Source: Gemmatimonadota bacterium (GTDB lineage Bacteria > Gemmatimonadota > Gemmatimonadetes > Gemmatimonadales > Gemmatimonadaceae). From it: a stretch of 42,164 nucleotides of DNA. Location: contig JAQBPV010000264.1 of NCBI GenBank assembly GCA_028287345.1, positions 1 to 42,164 of the forward strand. The letters are read 5' to 3'. Every line of letters starts with the position of its first letter. Positions within the stretch are counted from its first letter, which is position 1. The notes beneath the pieces were generated by a model. That model ran no database searches and had not been told where the DNA came from. It worked only from the letters and a program-made list of their open reading frames with translations. The position numbers and the translations under genes were made by a program. This document shows, piece by piece, positions 32,411-37,126 of this stretch.

Positions 32411-33436
32411 TCACCCCTTCCAGCGCGACCGCTTGCCGCGCGCGTCGATGTGCAGATATGGGCTCGCGTACCGACGGCTCACGTACATCCCAAGGCCGCC
32501 CACGAGGTCGGGATGCTTGTCTTCGACCCGCTCCACCGCAAGCATGACCAGCAATTCGTCCGTCATGGTGATGCGCCCGTCGCCGTCCGCGTCGACCGCG
32601 ATATCAGCCGCGTCGCCGTACTGGTGACGGCTGTCGCTCGCGGCGCGCGGAACACGCGCGTTGTGCGACGGAGACCGGAAGCCGGAGTGCACGTCGACCG
32701 CGAAGTCGGGACGAACACCGCCGCCCAGATCGGAGAAGACGAGCTCCAGCTTGTCGAGCAGGCGCGGATTCAGCGCGACGTACTTGGGCCACTTGTCGCC
32801 CTGATCATCGTGCGTCACGAAGTCGGCGAGCTTGAGATGCTTCGTCACCTGAAGGTCGAGCATCTCGGGGCGCACTTCGACGAAGCCGTCTGGACGCTCA
32901 TGATTGCCGCGGCCGAAGCGCTCGGCGATGTAGGTCCCGATGCGATAGCCGTTCAGGGAGCCGGCCACCTTCTGATCGAAGGGCACGATGACGGCGAGCG
33001 TCGGCTCGGGGAGAATCTCACGCTCGGCTCCACGCACGAGCGCCAGGCGATAGAACCCCGGCTTTGCCGGTGCCGGCAGCGGTGCGGTGGTGAGCGCAGC
33101 GATCGGTTCCGCGGAGACGCTGTCGCCGTATGCGACCCACTGGTAGCCGAGTGAATCGACGGCACCAGTGAGGTCGATCGGGAAGTCGACGGCCTGTCGG
33201 GGAAGCGCGAAGCGCACCTTTACGTTGCCGCTGCGTCCAAAGGCATCAGACGCTGGCGTCGCCGCGAGGGTCGGCGCGGCGGACACCGCTTCGGCAAGGC
33301 GAGAGAAGGGCGCGGTCGGCATTGCGACCGAGGGGCGAAGGAACTGAATGGCGCCGAGCGTGGCGAGGCAGAAGAGCAATCCTGCGCCGATGACACCGAC
33401 GACACCACGAGGCTCGAGGGAGCGGTTGTCGCTCAC
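32411..33436 (-). CDS. Peptidase M15-like (DUF882-type) with EF-hand-like loop
   Basis: A 341-residue envelope protein with an N-terminal membrane anchor (GVVGVIGAGLLFCLATLGAI). The C-terminal 140 residues form a zinc D-Ala-D-Ala peptidase-like domain: DVHSGFRSPSHNARV, the zinc His and Asp in SRHQYGDAADIAVD, and the final zinc His in SPYLHIDARG. The segment DADGDGRITMTDE right after the zinc Asp has the spacing of a calcium-binding EF-hand loop. The middle (residues about 60-170) is an Ig-like/beta region. It likely cuts or binds peptidoglycan peptides. The start is GTG 33436 (MSDNRSLEPRG). Two palindromes lie upstream. Confidence 0.85.
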   Translation of the reverse strand: MSDNRSLEPRGVVGVIGAGLLFCLATLGAIQFLRPSVAMPTAPFSRLAEAVSAAPTLAATPASDAFGRSGNVKVRFALPRQAVDFPIDLTGAVDSLGYQWVAYGDSVSAEPIAALTTAPLPAPAKPGFYRLALVRGAEREILPEPTLAVIVPFDQKVAGSLNGYRIGTYIAERFGRGNHERPDGFVEVRPEMLDLQVTKHLKLADFVTHDDQGDKWPKYVALNPRLLDKLELVFSDLGGGVRPDFAVDVHSGFRSPSHNARVPRAASDSRHQYGDAADIAVDADGDGRITMTDELLVMLAVERVEDKHPDLVGGLGMYVSRRYASPYLHIDARGKRSRWKG

Positions 33437-33463
33437 AGCCGGACCAGGGTGCAGAGCTTCAGA

Positions 33464-33487
33464 GCGGCGCCGAGCGCTCGGCGCCGC
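33464..33487. repeat. Perfect 24-base GC palindrome
   Basis: GCGGCGCCGAGC is followed directly by its exact complement. It begins 28 bases upstream of the M15 peptidase GTG start, inside the probable leader. As RNA it would be a very stable hairpin; no T run follows on either strand, so a plain terminator is not certain. It could also be an operator or a recombination or repeat remnant. Confidence 0.65.
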
Positions 33488-33694
33488 GAATTGCTTTCAC
33501 ACATGTATGAACGACCCCTTGGCAACCGAACTAGGCGAAGACGGTGAAACACCGCCGCGCGAGCAAAGTGCCGGGTGACCGGGCGCTCGCGACAAGGAGG
33601 ATCCTCCGACGAGGCGGAGGGGCGTTTCTTACTGGAGCAAGATACTCAATCAGTAGACGAGTGGAACCCAGCGCGGCAACACGGATTCTTTGGC

Positions 33695-33712
33695 TGACTG
33701 ATCGATCAGTCA
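33695..33712. promoter_or_regulatory. Perfect 18-base palindrome, TetR-operator-like
   Basis: TGACTGATCGATCAGTCA is a full two-fold palindrome with the TGAC...GTCA ends typical of many TetR-family operators. No TetR gene or transporter is adjacent, and the nearest start in the right orientation is the M15 peptidase about 259 bases away. It may be an operator for a regulator encoded elsewhere or a relic of a lost regulator gene. Confidence 0.5.
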
Positions 33713-33811
33713 TGCTAGCTACCTTGGTTCGTTCTCGTCGGGCGGCGTGTCGAGCGGCGTACGGCGCGTCGTGGGGAGCGCCTCGCATACGCAGGCGGCT
33801 GCGCTGGTCAC

Positions 33812-34666
33812 CTAATAGATAAACACCGGCGTCCCGACCTCGACCATCCCGTACAGCGTGGCAATGTCCGCATTCCGCAGCCGAACGCAGCCATGGCTCA
33901 CCGACCGCCCAATGCTCTCCGGCTTGTCCGTGCCGTGCAGAGCATAGCCGTCGCCGAGCACGAGGCGGTGAGTCCCCAGAACGCCCTTGTACTTCCGCTG
34001 GGTAGACCCGTACGGCGGAATGATGATATTCCCGCCGGCGACGATCTCGCGGCCTTCCACCCCCGCTCCCACCGGCTCTTCCCGCCCATCGGCGTATCGC
34101 TTCACCACTTCGGTGCCGCGCACCGTGATCTGACTGCCATCGTTCGCAGCGACGCTTTGTCCGCGCTCCAGTCGCACGATCCCCAATCCGCGCTTCCGCG
34201 CCTGCTCCACGAAATGCCAGTCAGGCGGAACCCACGCTGGATCTTCTTCCTTCGCCTGCACGGTGAGTCGGCCGCGGGGCGTCTCGAACTTCCACTGCGA
34301 TCCTCCCGCTGCGCCGTCGAGCACCTTGCCACTGCCGGTCGCCACCTGTGTCGTGAACAGCACTTTGTCGCCCTGCTTGTACCAGAGCCGGTGGTCCTCG
34401 ATGCTGACGACGATATACGGCTTGTTGCTCGAGGCGGGGTCGCCGGTCTCGCTCGCCTTCGACGCGCTGTCTTCCAGCGCGCCGCTGCTCCTTTTCACGT
34501 CCTCGAGCAGTTGAAGATTGTCGTTGAACACCATGCGGCTCACGTCGCGCTCATGACGCTTGAGCGCGGTGCGCGCGAAGAGCGCGCTGCTCGCGACCAT
34601 CAGCAGCAGCACGGCGCCGATGAGGCCCCACGCAATCCACCCGCCGCTGCGAAAGAATTTCGGCAT
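33812..34666 (-). CDS. L,D-transpeptidase (YkuD domain)
   Basis: A 284-residue periplasmic peptidoglycan enzyme that forms 3-3 cross-links or attaches proteins to the wall. An N-terminal membrane helix (WGLIGAVLLLMVASSALF) anchors it. The YkuD domain fills the C-terminal half, with the catalytic site H244-G-T-D and S257-H-G-C260-V-R262 (IGRSVSHGCVRLRNADI); all catalytic residues are present. A coiled linker and a domain rich in charged residues (about 85-205) lie before it. It starts at ATG 34666, 17 bases after the stop of a related gene that has lost these residues. The two probably form an operon and perhaps a complex. Confidence 0.93.
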   Translation of the reverse strand: MPKFFRSGGWIAWGLIGAVLLLMVASSALFARTALKRHERDVSRMVFNDNLQLLEDVKRSSGALEDSASKASETGDPASSNKPYIVVSIEDHRLWYKQGDKVLFTTQVATGSGKVLDGAAGGSQWKFETPRGRLTVQAKEEDPAWVPPDWHFVEQARKRGLGIVRLERGQSVAANDGSQITVRGTEVVKRYADGREEPVGAGVEGREIVAGGNIIIPPYGSTQRKYKGVLGTHRLVLGDGYALHGTDKPESIGRSVSHGCVRLRNADIATLYGMVEVGTPVFIY

Positions 34667-34683
34667 CACTCCTCCGGGAACCG

Positions 34684-35448
34684 CTAGTAGAAGTACACTG
34701 CTACACCGGGCTTGAGATTCGGTGCGATCGCCTTGAGGTCGGCAGCACGCACGCGAATGGCGCCCGGGAGCACATATGAGGAATCGTTCAGTGGTCCAAC
34801 GCTCGGGAGCGAGTAGATGAGCGTACCTCCGTCGAGCAGTATGGCGGCGGGTCCGTAGGCACCCTTGAGACGAGTCTCGCCGGCGGGGATGCCGCGATCG
34901 CCGTAGACCCACGATGGAATCTCGGAAACCGAGCTTTCGTCGAGCAACCGCTCGACCGTGCGCTTTCCGCGCGGAGCGGCGATGTGCATCGTGTCTGCGC
35001 CAGTGCCCACGCGCTTCTCCGGACCGATCGTGATCGGCATCTCGCGGAGTAGTGCGCCGTCGCGCTCGAGGTACATGACGCTGCTGTCGATCGACACCGA
35101 GAGATGCAGTGCGGCATCCACTTTCGCCTGTCGCTTGAACAGCTCGACCATGATTTTCACCCGATTCTCGTTCTGCGCGAGAATCGCGTCCGTGCGCTTG
35201 CGCTCGAGCGTCGTCATCGAACCGCGAAGCTCCGCCGTCTGCCGCTGATAGCGGAAGTACTTCCGAAGCAGCCACGCGTCCGCCGCGAGGAAGAGCACCA
35301 CCGCGATGCTCATCGTGGCGACGATACCTGGGTAGCTGTGCCGGAACTCGCGCCATCCCTTGCGACGACGATCGGTGCGTTCGCGCGAGGGATCCTTGCG
35401 GCGACCTGGGTCCCAATCGTCGGGATGGATGTCTGGCGGGTTGGTCAT
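34684..35448 (-). CDS. Degenerate L,D-transpeptidase paralogue (inactive site)
   Basis: A 254-residue membrane-anchored protein (helix IVATMSIAVVLFLAADAWLL) with a coiled segment (about residues 65-105) and a C-terminal domain that aligns with the YkuD domain of the next gene. Its end, SSYVLPGAIRVRAADLKAI, corresponds to SVSHGCVRLRNADIATLYG, and VAVYFY to TPVFIY. The catalytic Cys is Ala230, the His-Gly pair is Pro-Gly, and the upstream catalytic His is replaced, while Arg232 is kept. It should be unable to catalyse transpeptidation by the known mechanism. The start is ATG 35448 (MTNPPDIHPDDWDPGRR); it is divergent from gpmI. Confidence 0.82.
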   Translation of the reverse strand: MTNPPDIHPDDWDPGRRKDPSRERTDRRRKGWREFRHSYPGIVATMSIAVVLFLAADAWLLRKYFRYQRQTAELRGSMTTLERKRTDAILAQNENRVKIMVELFKRQAKVDAALHLSVSIDSSVMYLERDGALLREMPITIGPEKRVGTGADTMHIAAPRGKRTVERLLDESSVSEIPSWVYGDRGIPAGETRLKGAYGPAAILLDGGTLIYSLPSVGPLNDSSYVLPGAIRVRAADLKAIAPNLKPGVAVYFY

Positions 35449-35581
35449 CGGTGTCGGAGGAGGTAGATGACTTCGAAGCAAGGGCAGTGCCGGGCCCAAC
35501 CATGCCGTGGTCGCCGCTTCGCCCGCCCAATACATTTCCACGCTCCCGCCAACATTCTTCCCTCACCCACATCAGCCCAGC

Positions 35582-37126
35582 ATGGCCTCAGCGTCTCGAC
35601 CCGCGCCCGTCGTCCTCCTCGTGCTCGACGGCTGGGGATACCGTGCCGAATCGGAAGGCAACGCGATCGCGATGGCGAACGTCCCCACGTGGGACAAGCT
35701 GTGGGCGAAGGCGCCGCACACGCTGCTCGAGGCGTCGGGCGAAGCAGTCGGTCTCCCCGCGGGGCAGATGGGCAACAGCGAGGTGGGACATCTCAACCTC
35801 GGCGCCGGCCGAGTGGTGATGCAGGACCTCGTGCGTATTTCGCACGCGATCAGAGACGGTGCCTTCTTCCGCAACCCCGCGTTCATCGCAGCGTGCGACC
35901 AGGTGAAGAAGAACAACGGCACGCTGCATCTCGTTGGCCTCATCGGCTCAGGCGGCGTGCACGCCATCGACACGCACCTGCTCGCACTGCTCGACCTCGC
36001 GGCGCGCGAGAAGGTGCCCCGTGTCGCCATCCACGCGCTGCTCGACGGACGCGACACGATGCCCCGCTCGGCGCTGGGATATCTCGTCGAACTGCTCTCC
36101 CACGCGAAGGGACGTGCCGTGCTTGCGAGCGTCGGCGGCCGCTACTTCGGCATGGATCGCGACAACCGGTGGGACCGCATCGAGAAGTGGTATCGCGCCG
36201 TCGTCGAGGGTACGGGTCCCAACGCCGCGGACCCGCTGACCCTGGTCACGGATGCCTACAACCGCAACGTCACGGACGAGTTCATCGAGCCCACGACCAT
36301 CGTGGATGAGAAGGCCGCGTCTCTCGCGCCAATGCGGGATGGAGATGCGGTGATCTGCTTCAACTACCGCTCCGATCGCATGCGGCAAATCGTGCGCGCG
36401 CTTACCGATCCCGACTTCAAGGGATTCGACGTCTCGCGTCGCCCGAAGCTCCTCGTGGTCACGATGACGCAGTACGACCAGACCTTCAACGCCCCGATCG
36501 CCTTTCCGCCGCAGTCGATGGCGCGCATCCTCGGCGAGGTGCTCTCGGCGGCTGGCCTGACGAATTTGCGCACGGCGGAAACCGAGAAGTACGCGCATGT
36601 GACTTACTTCTTCAACGGCGGCCTCGAGACTCCGTATCCCGGCGAGGAGCGGCGGCTGGTGCCAAGCCAGAAGGTGGCGACGTACGATCTGGCTCCCGAG
36701 ATGAGCGCATTCGGCATCACCGACGTGCTCACTTCGGCTCTGCGGGCTCGGGAGCATGATTTCGTTCTCTGCAACTACGCGAACGCGGACATGGTCGGAC
36801 ACACCGGCTCCATCCCCGCCATCCTCCAGGCGGTGGAGACGGTGGACCAGTGTCTGGCGCGTGTGGTTGCGGCGGCGGAGGAGGTCGGCGCACGCCTCCT
36901 CGTGACGGCGGACCATGGCAACTGTGAGATGATGATCGATCCGGCAACCGGTGGTCCGCACACCGCGCACACGACAAACCCTGTACCCTTCGTGATCGTC
37001 GACAGCGACGGCAGGCACGGCCTGCGCAATGGCGGAGCACTCTGCGACGTGGCTCCAACGATTTTGCGGCTGCTCGGACTCGAGCAGCCTTCAGAGATGA
37101 CGGGGCGCGACCTGCGCCTCACCTGA
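35582..37126 (+). CDS. gpmI: 2,3-bisphosphoglycerate-independent phosphoglycerate mutase
   Basis: Interconverts 3- and 2-phosphoglycerate in glycolysis and gluconeogenesis using two Mn ions. The 514-residue protein has VLLVLDGWGYR at the N-terminus, the catalytic serine in QMGNSEVGHLNLGAGRVV, LDGRDT, NYRSDRMRQI, the metal motifs NYANADMVGHTGS and TADHGNCEMM, and the C-terminal GGALCDVAPTILRLLG. Length is normal. The ATG at 35582 matches the family start; upstream codons are non-coding. It is followed by an outer-membrane-protein-like gene 21 bases later, on the same strand. Confidence 0.97.
   Translation: MASASRPAPVVLLVLDGWGYRAESEGNAIAMANVPTWDKLWAKAPHTLLEASGEAVGLPAGQMGNSEVGHLNLGAGRVVMQDLVRISHAIRDGAFFRNPAFIAACDQVKKNNGTLHLVGLIGSGGVHAIDTHLLALLDLAAREKVPRVAIHALLDGRDTMPRSALGYLVELLSHAKGRAVLASVGGRYFGMDRDNRWDRIEKWYRAVVEGTGPNAADPLTLVTDAYNRNVTDEFIEPTTIVDEKAASLAPMRDGDAVICFNYRSDRMRQIVRALTDPDFKGFDVSRRPKLLVVTMTQYDQTFNAPIAFPPQSMARILGEVLSAAGLTNLRTAETEKYAHVTYFFNGGLETPYPGEERRLVPSQKVATYDLAPEMSAFGITDVLTSALRAREHDFVLCNYANADMVGHTGSIPAILQAVETVDQCLARVVAAAEEVGARLLVTADHGNCEMMIDPATGGPHTAHTTNPVPFVIVDSDGRHGLRNGGALCDVAPTILRLLGLEQPSEMTGRDLRLT

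Follow-up and report, generated by a model that had tools for sequence, protein, structure and literature searches.

An active-type L,D-transpeptidase and a catalytically degenerate paralogue of YkuD-like fold form a conserved gene pair in two families of Gemmatimonadetes

The window, by which we mean the whole stretch of 42,164 nucleotides analysed here, is contig 462 (JAQBPV010000264.1) of the assembly of a soil-type Gemmatimonadota bacterium, 6.1 Mb in 543 contigs. It contains two adjacent genes on the minus strand, 17 bases apart, an arrangement already described in a first-pass annotation of this DNA. The upstream gene (34684..35448, ATG at 35448) codes for a membrane protein of 254 aa with a YkuD-like fold and a degenerate active site (the dead copy), and the downstream gene (33812..34666, ATG at 34666) for a membrane-anchored YkuD L,D-transpeptidase of the active type with 284 aa (the live copy). 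A promoter scan of the locus gave no promoter-like match, so that the case for co-transcription rests on the short spacing; terminator-like sites numbered 4 against 1.6 expected. The frame of the downstream gene stays open across the entire dead gene, giving an ORF of 586 aa (33812-35572, minus strand) that is an effect of the high GC content and could mislead gene callers. The source genome has 7 YkuD matches in all (5 above the cut-off), with further ones on contigs C161, C276, C385, C520 and C8, and on C520 two of them adjoin each other.

The downstream protein reaches 90.4 bits against Pfam YkuD (E=2.1e-25, cut-off 23.4) and its catalytic motif SHGC is encoded at 33887..33898 (minus strand). 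H244, S257, H258, G259, C260 and R262 are invariant in the 26 rows of its family alignment (A4). By its score, the His and the SHGCxR motif it is classified, as the first-pass annotation had it, as a YkuD L,D-transpeptidase of predicted activity. The upstream protein stays below the same PF03734 cut-off (16.3 bits, E=0.016), and BLASTP between the two proteins aligns their YkuD halves only (best E=0.002, 26% over 69 aa). The comparison of family profiles with hhalign (A3 v A4) covers 219 columns that run from membrane helix to C-terminus, with a probability of 95.9 and E=6.4e-9, and pairs the downstream and upstream residues as C260/A230, H258/P228, G259/G229, R262/R232 and H244/Y212. The codons for L227-P228-G229-A230 (34759..34770, minus strand) are, according to the sequence and the profile alignment, the degenerate counterpart of SHGC. 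Read in this way, the window's upstream protein has retained the Gly and the Arg of the motif and has had its catalytic residues replaced, which agrees with what had been claimed about LPGA, the missing catalytic His and the Arg that follows.

The AlphaFold2 model of the upstream protein (27 sequences; mean pLDDT 82.7, pTM 0.58) has a low-confidence basic N-terminus, two helices (residues 40-77 and 80-110) and a beta-rich YkuD-like domain (115-254), with means of 83-96 for the ten-residue blocks of residues 111-254. The predicted membrane helix begins at about residue 40. In the model of the downstream protein (mean pLDDT 81.8) a long N-terminal helix is followed by a stalk of low confidence and a YkuD-type domain. 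The same layout of membrane helix, helical stalk and YkuD-type domain is thus predicted for both, and by hydropathy each of the two window proteins has a membrane-like stretch, in line with the shared helix of the first-pass annotation. Among the family copies described below it is found in 75/81 upstream and 73/81 downstream proteins (threshold 1.6, with the start codons of the relatives guessed). In a Foldseek search of the PDB with the upstream model, L,D-transpeptidases come on top (best 4lpq, E=1.3e-7; 79 matches at E<=0.001). Among the best 50 of the 79, YkuD or L,D-transpeptidase appears in the title of 47, the others being 1zat, 7o21 and 4xxt, and the TM-scores are 0.34-0.39 by query and 0.26-0.55 by target (rmsd 4.3-8.4 A). 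Foldseek and the hhalign match to the active family both point to the YkuD fold and away from an unrelated one. The upstream protein is therefore modelled as a recognisable yet altered YkuD fold; the earlier statement that the rest of the fold is kept stands for its YkuD character and is a little strong in its wording, given the low TM-scores. Searches of PDB sequences with the upstream protein or its profile gave no significant relative, no Pfam family was matched at E<=0.01 by any of 27 dead family members, and Pfam YkuD was matched at E<=0.1 by none of the four dead copies submitted from the second family introduced below. The dead copies are a protein family that Pfam misses.

The loss of the catalytic residues is not peculiar to the window. 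Among the named relatives of the upstream gene, 25/26 are titled as Gemmatimonadaceae, Gemmatimonadetes or Gemmatimonas. We assembled a family set of 81 loci, made up of the window and 80 fetched loci that were picked since both profiles matched nearby. One locus, L072 (CALQGY020000071.1), is labelled Candidatus Kuenenia stuttgartiensis and has the gene order of Gemmatimonadaceae, so it apparently comes from a mislabelled or contaminated assembly. The nucleophilic Cys is found in 0/81 upstream copies (one of them, L141, is frame-shifted at that column and is counted here as aligned), and its place is taken by S (36), A (30), T (4), N (4), Q (3), D (2), M (1) or E (1). Ala230, whose conservation the first-pass annotation had proposed to check, is consequently not conserved; the conserved feature is that Cys is missing. 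At the column of H244 we found Y in 70 copies, L and E in 3 each, V in 2, and A, S and H in 1 each. Pro228 is kept in 64/81, Gly229 in 80/81, Arg232 in 77/81 and Tyr212 in 70/81 copies. The live partners keep [LI]HG and SHGC[VI]R in all of the 80 that reach this region (one further partner ends at a contig edge). In fold, topology and the Gly and Arg of SHGCxR, the latter in most family copies, the dead copies are like the YkuD L,D-transpeptidases (PF03734; PDB 4lpq, 1y7m and 4a1i). They differ from these in lacking the Cys, in nearly always lacking the catalytic His and in scoring under the Pfam cut-off. Since Cys is absent from every upstream copy examined, its loss is not recent.

The dead domain itself is not uniform. 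Most of residues 171-195 are absent in 21/81 upstream copies, in which the old active-site loop is degenerate, and in one genus (g23) the domain is reduced further, with a recognisable copy preceding the active gene in 6/7 loci inspected (weakest profile match E=4e-6). The former active-site loop (215-232), with a mean entropy of 1.63 bits, and the first hairpin (1.64) rank with the better conserved parts of the dead protein, against 2.17 for the helical stalk. Five stalk positions (Y67, L74, R75, M78 and D87) are invariant in 27 dead sequences despite the lower mean conservation of the stalk. The active domain, at about 0.9-1.5 bits (0.89-1.49), is more conserved throughout than the dead one (1.6-1.9).

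One may also ask whether the upstream protein is dead at all or is still an enzyme, its active site having moved elsewhere. D222, S223 and Y225 are invariant in 27 aligned family copies. The YkuD/YafK scaffold can host other chemistry, as illustrated by Lpg1514, for which the accessible text of PMC13400389 describes serine-dependent beta-lactam hydrolysis with a serine outside the canonical site. We nevertheless consider this very improbable, given the variety of residues at the Cys position, the presence of S223 in 0/12 second-family copies (loop GP[LF][KA][DGES][AGTLV]) and its absence, as aligned, from the reduced copies. A new nucleophile at the Cys position itself was rejected, since the column holds eight different residues.

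Selection on the two genes was compared with the Nei-Gojobori method in 29 close locus pairs, which share loci and are thus not independent, and the median dN/dS was 0.12 for the dead and 0.10 for the active gene. The underlying set excludes 5/92 loci (truncated, frame-shifted or with odd starts) and also L174. As a value of about 1 would be expected for a pseudogene, the dead gene is under purifying selection, and so is the active one. The frame of the dead gene is open in the window, and neither of the marks of a pseudogene (relaxed selection and a broken frame) is seen there. The view of an intact gene kept by selection in spite of its dead site is supported by these values and by the tight linkage to the active gene described below. 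A decaying copy or a recent local loss could find some comfort in the frame shift of L141 (genome G186), which lies near the end of the gene and is either a sequencing error or decay, and in the shortened copies of some genera. Set against these are the loss of Cys in all examined copies of two families, the open frames of nearly all of them and the dN/dS of about 0.12, which leave this explanation with a negligible probability; a recent mutation or a pseudogene is rejected by the conserved Cys loss and the dN/dS.

The two genes are also tightly linked. Across 179 genomes of the family, 108 have both, 4 the dead gene only, 8 the active gene only and 59 neither (Fisher p about 2e-33, kinship ignored), so that the upstream family is found in 112/179 and the downstream orthologue in 116/179. 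These counts depend on how matches were read. The dead set leaves out 17/129 matching genomes with weak or unlisted matches, which include paralogous active Ldts and also genomes of g23 later shown to have reduced dead copies. The active set leaves out 22/138, which score no more than 230 bits and were taken for paralogues (273 bits is the lowest score retained), and G006, whose active fragment of 88 residues (75% identity) lies at a contig edge, was scored as neither. Most exceptions have a visible circumstance. The contig ends at the pair in two active-only genomes (G001 and G142), a reduced upstream copy is present in four (G164, G166, G168 and G173), no upstream dead copy was seen in G163, and the locus of the eighth, G174, is outside the inspected set. 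Two dead-only genomes (G007 and G082) end at a contig edge and the other two (G201 and G065) are 54% and 68% complete. Both genes are lacking from three genomes of the window's genus (G002, G004 and G009), so the two seem to be gained or lost together. When both are present they are adjacent and co-directional in 104/108 genomes, and on different contigs in the remaining 4. In all 81 family loci (80 of them preselected by both profiles) the dead copy lies directly upstream of the live one on the same strand; the search for the same two-gene arrangement in relatives, suggested by the first-pass annotation, has thus been answered in the affirmative.

On its upstream side the pair is bounded by a divergent gpmI-type phosphoglycerate mutase gene (35582..37126, plus strand), identified in the neighbour analysis and found in the same position in 24/26 named relatives; it is probably merely the boundary of the unit. 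Downstream, on the minus strand, lies a gene for an M15-type peptidase-like protein (32411..33436; Peptidase_M15_3, 25.5 bits against a cut-off of 23.2). Its SRHQYGDAAD and HID motifs are presumably the metal site. A match to this protein follows the pair in 23/26 relatives, and the other three contigs stop within about 300 bases of it. The window's M15 protein matches Peptidase_M15_2 (DUF882) under the cut-off, its best PDB sequence match is a muramoyl-pentapeptide carboxypeptidase (E=0.0098), and its identification as MepK was rejected (NCBIfam MepK 17 vs a cut-off of 185 bits). In many relatives (L058-L082) the transpeptidase gene and the counterpart of the window's M15 gene are separated by an extra M15-type gene; in its place the window shows a gap of 375 bases (33437-33811), which may be a scar. 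The gap contains two perfect palindromes, one of 24 bases, GC-rich and terminator-like on the plus strand, between the transpeptidase and the M15 gene (33464-33487), and one of 18 bases that is operator-like (33695-33712, TGACTGATCGATCAGTCA). A comparable neighbourhood exists in E. coli K-12, in which ldtD is followed by mepK, so that there an L,D-transpeptidase gene adjoins a gene for a peptidoglycan L,D-endopeptidase of the M15/DUF882 type, much as the window's family has an M15-type gene nearby, with the difference that the 7 kb inspected in E. coli contain no dead transpeptidase. According to the accessible part of PMC12729407, L,D-transpeptidases of this kind require donors with tetrapeptides, and the endopeptidase activity of MepK is L,D-specific. 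An M15 peptidase near an Ldt may accordingly serve substrate trimming or crosslink turnover.

When 395 genomes of the phylum were searched with the upstream profile, 12 that belong to another family of the class (f6, the second family) gave matches spanning almost its full length (E=2e-32 to 1e-43). Here the loci were picked by the dead copy alone, and in 12/12 it directly precedes, on the same strand, an active-type copy (FHG ... ASHGC). The dead loop reads GP[LF]....[KIMH]P[AG][ASG]F and none of the 12 has a Cys in the last 226 residues. Homologues that keep Cys, which would have contradicted the original interpretation, are therefore absent from both sets of loci, and the catalytic loss reaches beyond the window to its family and to the second family of the class. 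The position of H244 is occupied by Tyr in 8/12 and by His in 4/12 (L168, L169, L170 and L174), all without Cys, which tempers the picture of full catalytic loss. Counting the single His in 81 family copies, His at this position never occurs together with Cys. BLAST detected neither gpmI nor an M15 gene near the second-family pair, whether in 12 loci with mostly 1-2 kb of flank or in 5 whose flanks are about 4-11 kb long. What the two families share is thus the pair itself, and the case for counting the M15 gene in the core unit is weakened, although BLAST could miss a distant M15 gene. Weak profile matches occurred in 8 further genomes outside the family; the 4 that were fetched are active-type enzymes with [ST]HGC, and no dead copy lies near them within 4.4-4.5 kb.

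In a tree of 62 sequences, which includes 18/81 family pairs and 8/12 second-family pairs, the sampled dead copies of the two families, all of them full-length and none reduced, fall into a single clade (SH-aLRT 99), apart from 36 active sequences; both dead groups have long branches, so that attraction may play a part. Second-family live copies group with other paralogues (SH-aLRT 92), and the live copies of the window's family are not one group, so that the live partners of the two families need not be strict orthologues. Neither gene was matched in any of 24 genomes from two further families of the order, which are expected to be nearer relatives. The tandem of dead and live copies may be old, with intervening losses, or may have been transferred between families.

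We have then a pair whose dead member has lost the nucleophile in all examined copies, forms one clade in the sampled full-length copies, is under purifying selection, is linked to the active gene and has the same layout and fold. From these observations we infer a physical complex, its interface, its effect on activity and its substrate. The dead copy is probably a pseudoenzyme subunit that uses its membrane helix and stalk to bind the live transpeptidase, which it would regulate or position, and its maintenance next to the live gene in two families suggests a built-in partner. It might act as a scaffold, a regulator or a substrate-binding partner, the roles originally put forward. The two genes would give a hetero-oligomer built of two paralogues, one an active L,D-transpeptidase and the other a pseudoenzyme of the same fold; each would be anchored in the inner membrane by one helix, its YkuD domain lying in the periplasm. 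The partners would be held together by their membrane helices and the helical stalks next to these, and the dead domain may add to the contact with its first beta-hairpin, which even the reduced copies retain. In full-length dead copies the former active-site loop could have become a different, conserved surface; the reduction of this region in 21/81 copies makes a general role for the old loop impossible. The dead domain would position or gate the active domain or its peptidoglycan strand, and in this manner the place and timing of 3-3 crosslinks (or other L,D-transfers) would be controlled.

Several points weigh against a complex: linkage can arise from co-regulation alone, mean conservation is lower in the stalks than in the domains, the pair is missing from the 24 genomes of nearer families, and the live partner may not be the same orthologue in both families. 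A mean-field coupling analysis (88 pairs, Neff 57; 4 family loci and L174 excluded) gave 115 inter-protein pairs in the top 250 vs 1 for one shuffled pairing, with intra-protein top pairs unlike contacts and the same few columns recurring, and we read it as the split between families and base no conclusion on it. The dead copy could instead serve in the same pathway without touching the enzyme, as an adaptor or sensor that binds peptidoglycan or muropeptides, the linkage ensuring co-production. Contact is indeed not implied by linkage alone, and the well conserved former active-site loop of full-length copies would fit ligand binding. Copies with a reduced loop region still adjoin the enzyme and the membrane helix and stalk are retained, so that we hold this to be unlikely. 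A homodimer may also have turned into a heterodimer after the duplication, with one site lost at no gain and the dead subunit entrenched as a structural part needed for folding or dimerising. Gains of complexity without benefit after duplication have reportedly been modelled (PMC11066126), and paralogy across nearly the full length, the tight linkage and a dead domain still shrinking in several genera go in this direction. The dN/dS of the dead gene, almost equal to that of the active one, and a rebuilt loop conserved in full-length copies beyond what bare entrenchment needs make such an origin more doubtful still than that of a separate adaptor.

The pseudoenzyme subunit that we favour would have relatives in function elsewhere. 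For the layout of the pair the closest solved precedent appears to be Csd1-Csd2 of Helicobacter pylori, an active and a degenerate LytM/M23 peptidase that form a 1:1 heterodimer via helical domains, as given in the accessible text of PMC5053510. As in the window pair, whose two members are conserved together, these are paralogous cell-wall enzymes, one intact and one degenerate, and the helical region beside the catalytic-type domain that makes the solved dimer has a possible counterpart in our predicted stalks. Csd1-Csd2 are LytM metallopeptidases with a proven heterodimer, whereas the window pair is of the YkuD cysteine type and its heterodimer is a proposal. The same source describes EnvC and NlpD as degenerate LytM factors that activate amidases, with residues round the degenerate site of EnvC being important (PMC5053510). 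They illustrate a dead cell-wall enzyme domain as a regulator, as we propose here, and differ in having another fold, and targets of yet another, while the dead YkuD copy is a paralogue of its proposed target. A degenerate LytM amidase activator was rejected as the identity of the upstream protein, its fold being YkuD-like. AdoMetDC-prozyme of Trypanosoma brucei, in which a dead paralogue activates the live one through heterodimerising (PMC5201418 and PMC6221367, in the parts accessible), is an analogy of mechanism only, as enzyme and organism are unrelated to ours.

Our literature search found no dead partner of a YkuD enzyme among the matches listed (most subscription papers were out of its scope), and the few papers found on Gemmatimonad transpeptidases have none on a dead YkuD partner by title. 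To our knowledge, little is known about the control of L,D-transpeptidases at the protein level. LdtD of E. coli is described as controlled by transcription, translation and substrate and as interacting with PBP1B, and the accessible part of this 2025 review makes no mention of a dead paralogue as a control (PMC12729407). By analogy with EnvC and the amidases, or prozyme and AdoMetDC, we tentatively suggest, at somewhat less than even chances, that a dedicated YkuD pseudoenzyme subunit, shared by two families through descent with losses or through transfer, controls L,D-crosslinking. If true, these bacteria would have a regulator that is itself of transpeptidase fold and belongs to a protein family missed by Pfam, and the pair would be a natural and testable case of built-in control of L,D-crosslinking.
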